Shown here: positions 3,924 to 6,710 of the stretch, one piece after another | How the letters are laid out: each line of letters starts with the position of its first letter | Position numbering within the stretch: position 1 is the stretch's first letter | Source: Chthonomonadales bacterium | GTDB lineage: Bacteria > Armatimonadota > Chthonomonadetes > Chthonomonadales > CAJBBX01 | NCBI GenBank assembly: GCA_027459625.1 | Contig: DAIDHP010000014.1 | Coordinates: forward strand, 1-64,000 | Direction: 5' to 3' | Length of the DNA stretch: 64,000 nucleotides | Notes under the pieces: model-generated | The model's database searches: none | Seen by the model: the letters and a program-made list of their open reading frames with translations, nothing else | What the model was told of the DNA's origin: nothing | Translations under genes and position numbers: made by a program

Positions 3924-4814
3924 ATGTGTGGAAAAAGATCGTATCCCGCCTTCACTTTGATTGAACTGCTTATTGTCATTGCGATTATCGCTCTTCTTTG
4001 CGCCATTCTGTTTCCGGTGTTCTACGCCGTGAAAGAGGGGGCAAACTCGGCGATGTGCAGTTCGAATTTACGGCAATTGGGTCAGGCGTTCGCGATGTAC
4101 GCCTCGGATAAGGATGGCTGGTTTCCCTCCCCCGGAGGGCATAGAACCCTTTTAGGTGAGATTGGATCCGGATGGATACAGAGCGATGGACCGGGCATGG
4201 GCAAGGATAACGGAGGAATATGGCCCTACGTGCAACAACGTGGCAACGGCGGGATGTCCAACGTTTGGGGATGCCCTCACGCTCTTCCCGGTCCCCCTTG
4301 GGCGTATTCCCCAGGTCAAAATTATATCATGAACGATTATCTCCGTTGCTGGCATCCCGGGGAAGAGCGTATCTATCCATTTATAAAGTGGAATATCCCG
4401 CTTCAAGTGGAGGCTTACGCCTGCGGAATTAGCCCTGATAATCTCATCGTATCCCCGTCCGGGATCATCCTGCTTTTTGAGGGGGCTCAGCACTCCTCAA
4501 TGCATAACACCAGCCGACCCGGTTCTCCGTTCTTCAACACCGGCGCCAGCGCAACTCCTCCACTATGCAAGGATATGCCGCAAAACTATCATCACGGAAG
4601 GGGAAATTACCTGTTTTGCGACCTTCATGTTAAAGCCCTGTATGCGGGGAAGACCTGGACCGCAGAGGATCAACCCGCTTTCGAGAAGTACAACGGCCCG
4701 GGATATAACGAATGTAAGACGCTTGCGGCAATATTGGACTTAGGAGGGGATTATCATGGTTCCGCTGATGAATCGATGTGGAACCCTCGCATACCTTCCG
4801 TGGTTTACCCGTAA
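3924..4814 (+). CDS. DUF1559-type prepilin-like protein (type II pseudopilin leader)
   Basis: 296 residues. The N-terminus shows the class III signal: a short basic leader, then AFTLIELLIVIAIIALL with Phe10 at the cleavage site and Glu14 at position +5, leading into a transmembrane helix. The C-terminal part contains YHHGRGNYLFCDLHVKAL, the H-x8/9-D block typical of the large DUF1559 paralogue families of Planctomycetes, Verrucomicrobia and Armatimonadota. Such proteins are processed by prepilin peptidase and exposed on the envelope; their function is unknown. ATG 3924 is preferred over the longer frame because AAGGAG (3911-3916) lies eight bases upstream and it places the leader correctly. 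It is a monocistronic gene. Confidence 0.88.
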   Translation: MCGKRSYPAFTLIELLIVIAIIALLCAILFPVFYAVKEGANSAMCSSNLRQLGQAFAMYASDKDGWFPSPGGHRTLLGEIGSGWIQSDGPGMGKDNGGIWPYVQQRGNGGMSNVWGCPHALPGPPWAYSPGQNYIMNDYLRCWHPGEERIYPFIKWNIPLQVEAYACGISPDNLIVSPSGIILLFEGAQHSSMHNTSRPGSPFFNTGASATPPLCKDMPQNYHHGRGNYLFCDLHVKALYAGKTWTAEDQPAFEKYNGPGYNECKTLAAILDLGGDYHGSADESMWNPRIPSVVYP

Positions 4815-4832
4815 ACTCGTATGCTTAAGTAT

Positions 4833-4861
4833 TTGACATCTGATGAATACGGCATCATAAT
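4833..4861 (+). promoter_or_regulatory. Sigma-70 type promoter for the purH leader
   Basis: TTGACA at 4833-4838, a 17-base spacer, and CATAAT at 4856-4861. It predicts a transcript beginning near 4868, so the 5' leader would contain the palindromic repeat (4870-4956) and the ZTP riboswitch before purH. Confidence 0.75.
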
Positions 4862-4869
4862 ACATATGA

Positions 4870-4956
4870 GGAGTTGCAAAAAACTCGATTTTGCCATGAT
4901 ATGAAATGTCAAAATCGCTTTGAACGTTTCATATTATGGAATTTGCAATGATCTCC
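4870..4956. repeat. Diverged copy of the dispersed palindromic element, in the purH leader
   Basis: Outer ends GGAGTTGCAAAA and TTTGCAATGATCTCC are imperfect inverted repeats resembling the termini of the 83-85 bp element found at 16998, 30961, 37945 and 44280. An inner stem (CCATGATATGAAA against TTTCATATTATGG, 12 of 13 paired) encloses about 20 bases. Length 87 bp. Membership is likely but the interior is not clearly alignable to the other copies. Confidence 0.5.
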
Positions 4957-4970
4957 TAAAACCGATTTTG

Positions 4971-5048
4971 CGATGGGCGTCACTGGCGCAGCAGGGGAGT
5001 TCACCCCAAGGGAGCGTCCATCCGAATTTGCCGAGCGCCTGGGCTTCC
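4971..5048 (+). promoter_or_regulatory. ZTP (ZMP/AICAR) riboswitch aptamer upstream of purH
   Basis: The leader carries the conserved blocks of the ZTP (pfl motif) riboswitch in order: CACTGGCGC (4981-4989), a hairpin GGGGAGTTCACCCC (4994-5007), AAGGGAGCG, and TGCCGAGCGCCTGGGC (about 5029-5044). GGCGC (4985-4989) can pair with GCGCC (5035-5039), the long-range pairing of this class. ZTP riboswitches sense the purine/one-carbon intermediate that builds up when 10-formyl-THF is short; PurH is the enzyme that consumes that intermediate, so the placement fits. Expression control is probably by the terminator immediately downstream. Confidence 0.88.
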
Positions 5049-5056
5049 ACTTTATT

Positions 5057-5082
5057 AAAAGCGGAGTGTCCGGGCGCTTTTT
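5057..5082 (+). terminator. Riboswitch-controlled intrinsic terminator of the purH leader
   Basis: AAAAGCG (5057-5063) pairs with CGCTTTT (5075-5081), with a run of five T (5078-5082), 47 bp before the purH start. AGCGC in the aptamer's 3' part (about 5034-5038) is complementary to GCGCT of the terminator arm, so aptamer and terminator could compete. The switching logic is inferred. Confidence 0.65.
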
Positions 5083-5129
5083 GATTCCCGAACACGCCAC
5101 CTTATTCAAGGGTATGAAAGGAGCAAACG

Positions 5130-6710
5130 ATGAGCGCGATAAAGCGTGCGTTGATTAGCGTATCGGACAAGACGGGCGTAGTGGATTTCGCCCGGGAGTT
5201 ATCCGGGATGGGCGTGGAGATTGTGTCGACGGGCGGAACGGCAAACGCCTTGAGAGAGGCTGGCGTTGCCGTAATTGGAGTGGAGGAGGTAACCCATTTT
5301 CCCGAGATGCTGGACGGAAGGGTGAAGTCGCTGCATCCTGCGGTTCATGGGGGATTGCTCGCCAGGCGCGATATTCCCGAGCATATGAAGACAATACAGG
5401 ATCATGACATCAAACCGATAGACATGGTGTGTGTGAACCTATATCCCTTCGCTAAAACCATTTCAAATCCAGATGTGAAATTGGAGGAAGCTATAGAGAA
5501 CATAGACATAGGCGGTCCTTCCATGGTTCGCTCGGCAGCAAAAAACCACGATGCCGTTACCGTGGTGGTGAACCCCGCCGATTACGCCGTCGTCCTGCAA
5601 GAGATGAAAGATAATGATGGAGAGACCCTTTTGGAAACTCGACGCAGACTCGCCGCCAAAGCGTTTTCCCATACCGCCCGATACGATTCTCTCATCTCTC
5701 GATTTTTGAGCAAACGTTTCAATCCGGAGGAGTATTTCCCGGAGGAGATCAGTTTCGGATATGTGAAGGCGCAGGATTGCCGATACGGAGAGAACCCGCA
5801 TCAGAATGCGGCTTTTTATAAAGAGACGAATGTAATAGAGCCATGCGTCGGGAACGCAAAACAGATTCACGGGAAAGAGCTATCCTTCAATAACTTCTTT
5901 GACATCAACGCGGCTTTCGAAACGGTGAAGGAGTTTTCCGAAAGACCCGCCGCAGTGATTGTAAAGCACACAAATCCATGCGGAGCCGCAGTGGCGGATA
6001 CATTGGCGGATGCCTTTCTTCGCGCAAGGATGGGCGACCCTGTATCCGCGTTCGGGGGAATACTGGCGGTGAATCGACCGTTGGATGTCGCAACTGCGGA
6101 TGAGATTACGGGTAAGAACACCTTTTTCGAGGCGATTATCGCTCCCTCTTTTGAGCCCAGGGCTTTGCCCGTTCTGACCGAAAAGAAAAAATGGGGCGCC
6201 AACCTTAGATTACTGGAGGCGGGTGATCTTGCCTTCCCTGCGAACCTTGCTTCGGAGTTTGATATGAAAAAGGTGGTCGGAGGGCTTTTGGTACAGGAGA
6301 GGGATCTTCGGATCGCTTCACCGGAGACATGGAAAACGGTAACCAATCGCGCCCCATCCAAGGAGGAGTTGGAGGAACTTCTGTTCGCTTGGAAGATCGT
6401 CAAGCACGCAAAATCCAACGCCATTGTTTTTACTAGAAACAGGAAAGTGGTCGGAGTGGGAGCGGGACAGATGAATCGCGTTCAGTCGGTGAGATTGGCG
6501 GTGGAGCACGCAGGCGAAAACGCCAAAAGCGCTGTGATGGCTTCCGACGCCTTCTTCCCCTTCCCGGACGGTCCGGAAGCCGCCGCCGAAGCTGGCATCG
6601 TCGCAGTGATACAGCCAGGAGGGTCGGTGAAAGATCAAGAGACAATCGACGTTTGCAACCGGTATAATATCGCCATGGTTTTTACAGGAATGCGTCATTT
6701 CCTGCATTAA
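5130..6710 (+). CDS. purH: Bifunctional AICAR formyltransferase / IMP cyclohydrolase
   Basis: 526 residues, the usual length. It catalyses the last two steps of IMP synthesis: formylation of AICAR with 10-formyl-THF and ring closure. The N-terminal cyclohydrolase part (about 1-150) shows VSDKTG (11-16) and LDGRVKSLHP (61-70). The transformylase part shows RYGENPHQ (218-225) and KHTNPCG (279-285), which carries the catalytic Lys-His pair. The C-terminus ends in the conserved GMRHFLH block. AAAGGAG lies six bases before the ATG. It is preceded by a ZTP riboswitch and terminator, so transcription should rise when AICAR/ZTP accumulates. It appears monocistronic or followed loosely by the isomerase gene 105 bp downstream. 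Confidence 0.98.
   Translation: MSAIKRALISVSDKTGVVDFARELSGMGVEIVSTGGTANALREAGVAVIGVEEVTHFPEMLDGRVKSLHPAVHGGLLARRDIPEHMKTIQDHDIKPIDMVCVNLYPFAKTISNPDVKLEEAIENIDIGGPSMVRSAAKNHDAVTVVVNPADYAVVLQEMKDNDGETLLETRRRLAAKAFSHTARYDSLISRFLSKRFNPEEYFPEEISFGYVKAQDCRYGENPHQNAAFYKETNVIEPCVGNAKQIHGKELSFNNFFDINAAFETVKEFSERPAAVIVKHTNPCGAAVADTLADAFLRARMGDPVSAFGGILAVNRPLDVATADEITGKNTFFEAIIAPSFEPRALPVLTEKKKWGANLRLLEAGDLAFPANLASEFDMKKVVGGLLVQERDLRIASPETWKTVTNRAPSKEELEELLFAWKIVKHAKSNAIVFTRNRKVVGVGAGQMNRVQSVRLAVEHAGENAKSAVMASDAFFPFPDGPEAAAEAGIVAVIQPGGSVKDQETIDVCNRYNIAMVFTGMRHFLH

Follow-up and report, generated by a model that had tools for sequence, protein, structure and literature searches.

The region upstream of purH in this Chthonomonadales contig (GCA_027459625.1, DAIDHP010000014.1) raises two questions: whether it holds a riboswitch sensing a ligand that the downstream enzyme itself consumes, and what the long hairpin-forming stretch between promoter and aptamer represents. 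The window analysed here is the whole stretch of 64,000 nucleotides taken from positions 1 to 64,000 of that contig. An earlier, sequence-only reading had placed a ZTP riboswitch with an overlapping terminator at 4833-5129, and this interval proved correct, running from the -35 element through the base preceding the start codon. The features of the locus, with the evidence for each, are as follows.

4833-4861, + strand: sigma-70-type promoter, with -35 TTGACA at 4833-4838, a spacer of 17 and -10 CATAAT at 4856-4861 (11/12 consensus; kept in the sister species)
4868-4957, + strand: single-copy inverted-repeat leader, with an inner hairpin at 4894-4939 and outer arms near 4868-4880 and 4943-4955 (fold; sister alignment)
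4969-5051, + strand: ZMP/ZTP riboswitch aptamer, RF01750 (55.9 bits; covariation in 22 loci)
4985-4989, + strand: pseudoknot strand 1, GGCGC (Rfam structure on the window row and pair count in 22 loci)
5035-5039, + strand: pseudoknot strand 2, GCGCC (shared with the 5' arm of the terminator)
5033-5082, + strand: intrinsic terminator, hairpin 5033-5079 and U-run 5078-5082 (fold energy; shuffle test of arm pairing)
5115-5129, + strand: ribosome-binding region, with AAAGGAG at 5117-5123 (read from the sequence; 14 of 15 letters the same in the sister species)
5130-6710, + strand: purH, bifunctional AICAR (ZMP) formyltransferase / IMP cyclohydrolase, 526 aa (TIGR00355, 698.3 bits, cut-off 528)

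Aptamer and target gene

The covariance search that the earlier reading had set as its check was run, and upheld it. The ZMP-ZTP model RF01750 matches window positions 4969-5051 over its full length (model positions 1-86 of 86) with 55.9 bits against a gathering score of 39 (E 2.2e-6 over the window), and this is the only RF01750 match in the genome. The structure was then compared across 22 aptamers (the window's own, one from the sister species, seven from the family and 13 from the order), counting the Rfam structure as it falls on the window row, with the pseudoknot added and with a nonstandard outer pair of P1 and two T-T positions of P3 removed. Across these loci 91.9% of cells are paired, compared with 81.5% in shuffles, and 62 cells have changed on both sides, compared with 19.8; neither value was reached in any of 500 shuffles. 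The number of pairs with a both-side change is 12 against 8.9 in shuffles and was reached by 18 of 500, and sliding the partner columns by 1-3 positions lowers pairing to 54% or less. The P1 and P2 helices are backed by covariation, with both-side changes in 8 of the 11 pairs of the first helix and in three of the four pairs of the hairpin.

The GGCGC/GCGCC pairing that had been read by eye holds as the pseudoknot, in which 98.2% of cells are paired and four of the five pairs are invariant in all 22 loci. The fifth pair is CG in 13 loci, UG in five, UA in two and unpaired in two, with two sequences changed on both sides. By a simpler count covering 51 of the 53 aptamer places surveyed (two were skipped, the block being absent), 20 of 22 places from the window's own genome out to the order have a standard fifth pair, compared with 16 of 29 elsewhere in the phylum.

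The downstream gene is purH, as had been claimed, and begins at 5130. The nearest named database record is a PurH that is 94% identical, and the next ones are labelled Chthonomonadales, Armatimonadetes or Chthonomonas. The lineage's purH is placed by this assignment under likely ZMP control, like that of many relatives, which is mainly of value for annotation. The earlier reading rightly linked this gene to the ligand, but its wording that purH uses the ligand's precursor pathway does not stand, since PurH consumes the ligand ZMP (AICAR) itself. A purine gene downstream of the aptamer agrees with the class, and purH is listed among the targets of the pfl motif (PMC2864571). The window shares with this class the full-length match, the pseudoknot, the P3 CGCCUGGGC block, the overlapping terminator and the purH target, and no difference from the class was found in its aptamer or terminator. 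The element at 4969-5051 is an ordinary member of the known ZMP/ZTP riboswitch class, ahead of a usual target gene.

The very start of the contig (3-73, + strand) carries a group II intron match (RF00029, 45.0 bits). This model covers the 3' end of the intron; the remainder would thus fall outside the contig, and a break in the assembly at this point is possible.

Terminator and predicted switching

The hairpin at 5033-5079 folds at -30.6 kcal/mol (z -4.6) and is followed by UUUUU. It includes the GCGCC pseudoknot strand and the 3' side of P3, and because it reuses both, aptamer and terminator are mutually exclusive. This bears out the proposal that the terminator arm can compete with the 3' part of the aptamer: none of 300 dinucleotide shuffles gives an equally good pairing between the P3/pseudoknot strand of the window and the downstream arm. 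The hairpin is absent from the list of a simple terminator scan, probably because its stem has interruptions.

The overlap recurs among relatives. Taking as the threshold that at most 15 of 300 dinucleotide shuffles pair the P3 block equally well with the downstream arm, such pairing was found in the window's own locus (1/1), the sister (1/1), 7/7 family, 9/13 order and 15/31 phylum places; in one of the family loci the contig ends within the arm. The remaining four order and 16 phylum places failed, including two phylum places that lack a P3 block and were scored as misses. Adding the demand for at least five U in a 10-base end window leaves the window's own locus, the sister, six family, eight order and 11 phylum places.

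An ON-type, transcription-terminating ZMP/ZTP riboswitch almost certainly controls purH; ligand binding and the direction of switching are what we infer here. At minimum energy the leader folds into the terminator form, which is expected for the ligand-free RNA, so that folding alone cannot show switching. The proposed sequence of events would begin with RNA polymerase starting near 4868 and making the hairpin-forming leader first, then the aptamer. When ZMP is absent, the downstream arm would invade P3 and the pseudoknot strand, the terminator at 5033-5079 would form and transcription would stop before purH. Should ZMP build up, through a shortage of formyl-folate or too little PurH, it would stabilise P3 and the pseudoknot, the terminator would fail and purH would be transcribed, and the PurH produced would in turn use up ZMP.

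This mechanism has been demonstrated experimentally in other ZTP switches (PMC10085676; PMC7484762). The pfl switch of Clostridium beijerinckii is described as one in which the terminator arm displaces P3 and the pseudoknot unless ZMP holds them, and in which imperfections of the invader near the top of the hairpin increase the ON state (PMC10085676); for the Fusobacterium ulcerans ZTP switch the decision is described as kinetic (PMC7484762). RNAs of the pfl motif with overlapping terminators were described along with the motif itself (PMC2864571). According to the account of the C. beijerinckii switch (PMC10085676), the 3' arm of its terminator, the invader, pairs with the pseudoknot strand as well as with P3, just as in the window, and both invaders are imperfect, with three wobble pairs and one bulge in the window and three wobbles and two bulges in C. 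beijerinckii. The target genes differ, purH in the window and pfl in C. beijerinckii. This comparison covers invader and target gene; for its part, the window has a long hairpin-forming leader before its aptamer.

It is very improbable that the aptamer region acts on translation, governing access to the ribosome-binding site and not termination: 65 bases separate the aptamer from AAAGGAG in the window, with the hairpin and the U-run in between, and the loci that lend the idea some colour are four from a single genus of the phylum (L118, L119, L121 and L126; genus g71), where purH begins 28 bases past the aptamer. The P3 block of these loci is able to pair with a CCCAGGAG-type stretch, but 62-86 of 300 shuffles pair equally well. 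Those four loci may perhaps be under translational control in their own right, the pairing in them being not beyond shuffles.

The long leader between promoter and aptamer

The promoter of the earlier reading was recovered at 4833-4861, and no other + strand promoter-like site (at least 9/12) lies within 4300-5600. By itself the match is not beyond chance: when the 250 bases ahead of the aptamer were letter-shuffled 200 times, 16 of the shuffles also contained a site of at least 10/12, and the number of sites of at least 9/12 was two against 1.3 expected. The sister species (G001) has exactly the same two hexamers and 6-base discriminator. From promoter spacing we infer a transcription start site at about 4867-4869.

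The -10 element ends 107 bases before the aptamer in the window and 109 in the sister. Promoters in the family and order were called by consensus alone, and on that basis five of the seven family loci have a promoter match (at least 9/12), at 13, 13, 13 and 20 bases before the aptamer and, weakly, at 5; nine of the 13 order loci have one at 4, 4, 4, 14, 20, 20, 51, 133 and 166 bases. From matches 4-5 bases before the aptamer the RNA would start inside the aptamer, and these matches may be false. In three order loci the best promoter match lies even further from the aptamer than that of the window, or about as far. ZTP-purH leaders elsewhere in the family and order, among them L016, L018 and L030, have the aptamer, gene and overlapping arm as in the window; in these three the -10 match lies 13-20 bases before the aptamer instead of 107. 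Within the genomes searched, a leader of this length seems peculiar to the genus, and the claim that it is unusually long owing to a palindrome agrees with the shorter leaders seen in those family members whose promoter is recognisable.

The element itself was only partly described by the sequence-only reading. An inverted repeat is real, the 4867-4965 region folding at -32.4 kcal/mol (z -6.2) with none of 200 shuffles equally good. However, neither a DNA search nor a covariance model built from both species found another copy in the genome, so that the term palindromic repeat gives way to single-copy inverted repeat. Among 101 genomes searched by DNA the hairpin was found only in those of the window and the sister, and among 31 searched with the model it was likewise absent outside the genus. 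In the sister genome it occurs at two places, which are the two overlapping contig ends discussed below.

This hairpin is probably a genus-level spacer that takes no part in sensing. It is possible, though doubtful, that it is instead a second functional leader element added in the genus, either a 5' stem that stabilises the mRNA or a stretch bound by a regulator protein; a riboswitch would then have gained another layer of control within a single genus, a small example of its kind. Its position directly downstream of the expected start and its strong fold in the window are consistent with such a role; the sister hairpin folds more weakly (z -2.1, with 6 of 200 shuffles equally good). Alignment of 4868-4957 with the sister gives 72 identical letters of 90 with two gap columns, and this identity of 0.80 exceeds that of two short stretches beside promoter and aptamer (0.67 for 4815-4832 and 0.64 for 4958-4968), but resembles that of 5084-5114 (0.81) and of the promoter spacer (0.82) and falls below that of the aptamer (0.96); the terminator loop and arm and purH stand at 0.91 each. 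Paired letters are conserved more often than unpaired ones (56/64 vs 14/24, Fisher p 0.006), in a comparison of two species that takes adjacent sites as independent. One compensated pair occurs in a small alternative 5' stem, but of the 32 pairs in the fold of the window, 25 stay the same in the sister, two are kept through a one-sided change, five are broken and none is compensated. Because the variation stays within the range of the neighbouring spacers and no pair of that fold is compensated, any role of the hairpin is only putative.

A second alternative, which we consider unlikely, makes the hairpin the remnant of a mobile palindromic, MITE-like element that the ancestor of the genus acquired by insertion between promoter and aptamer. 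The inverted-repeat shape and the difference in promoter-aptamer distance, 5-20 bases in five of the seven family loci against 107-109 in the genus, would suit an insertion. Against it, the genome holds one copy, the other 99 genomes hold none by DNA search, a plasmid search gave no match to the leader, and no clear target duplication is visible at the hairpin by eye. A dispersed palindromic repeat or MITE with several genomic copies is rejected on the single copy found by both searches.

Other candidates for the leader were set aside. No other known RNA family was found in it, microRNA and snoRNA models matching far below their cut-offs. By eye, an ATG at 4866 opens 12 codons in a frame within the ORF 4821-4904, and both its start and its stop are retained in the sister; a leader peptide would need the RNA to start exactly at the A of this ATG, and five of the 12 residues differ in the sister. 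An alternative pairing of 4910-4921 with 4959-4970, touching the 5' edge of the aptamer, is not kept in the sister, again by eye.

The two sister contigs overlap exactly by 126 bases over the promoter and hairpin, and one of them, whose name gives a coverage of 3.8, continues into the aptamer. The other (C2, L133) ends 9 bases past the overlap, those 9 bases being the reverse complement of the stretch before the ribosome-binding site of purH (L134), which forms an inverted junction at a shared CTCCTTT. One exact pattern for the partner junction of a true inversion was found in neither of the two genomes. It is highly implausible that the switch region of the genus rearranges, the segment of aptamer and terminator flipping across a weak inverted pair made up of the leader's 3' arm and the purH ribosome-binding region, which would leave purH in some cells freed from, or cut off from, its switch; a fold-back artefact that arose in the library or the assembly is far likelier.

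Distribution among relatives

The aptamer was surveyed in 201 genomes, including that of the window, with stricter filters under which weak matches are lost, and is present in 51 of them at 53 places. At 36 places the aptamer is followed, 28-155 bases on, by a PurH match that starts within the first seven residues. Ten fetched stretches are without a PurH match, two of them (L026 and L125) shortened by contig ends, and at one place a second aptamer lies 965 bases ahead of purH. At the remaining six places, all in the wider phylum (L003, L004, L005, L007, L009 and L022), the aptamer precedes a protein that matches only the formyltransferase half of PurH, with 30-35% identity. From the window's own genome out to the order, purH lies 47-112 bases downstream at 21 of 22 loci, the last (L026) being the one cut by a contig end.

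The switch is unevenly present even among close relatives. Three of the 12 family genomes (the window's own included in the count) are without a ZTP match, and all three have purH without the switch; among nine family or order genomes without a match, seven have a PurH match. Five of these seven purH loci were scanned (L135, L136, L137, L138 and L139), and there was no ZTP match at E up to 1 in any of them. This pattern suggests that the switch was lost or gained within the order. A literature search combining Armatimonadetes (in that spelling) and riboswitch with purH or ZTP found nothing.

Two genomes each carry two ZTP aptamers. In one (G055; L029 and L127), one aptamer precedes purH and the other is without a PurH match. 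In the other (G068; L116), a single contig carries both aptamers at a distance of about 835 bases, and purH follows the second.
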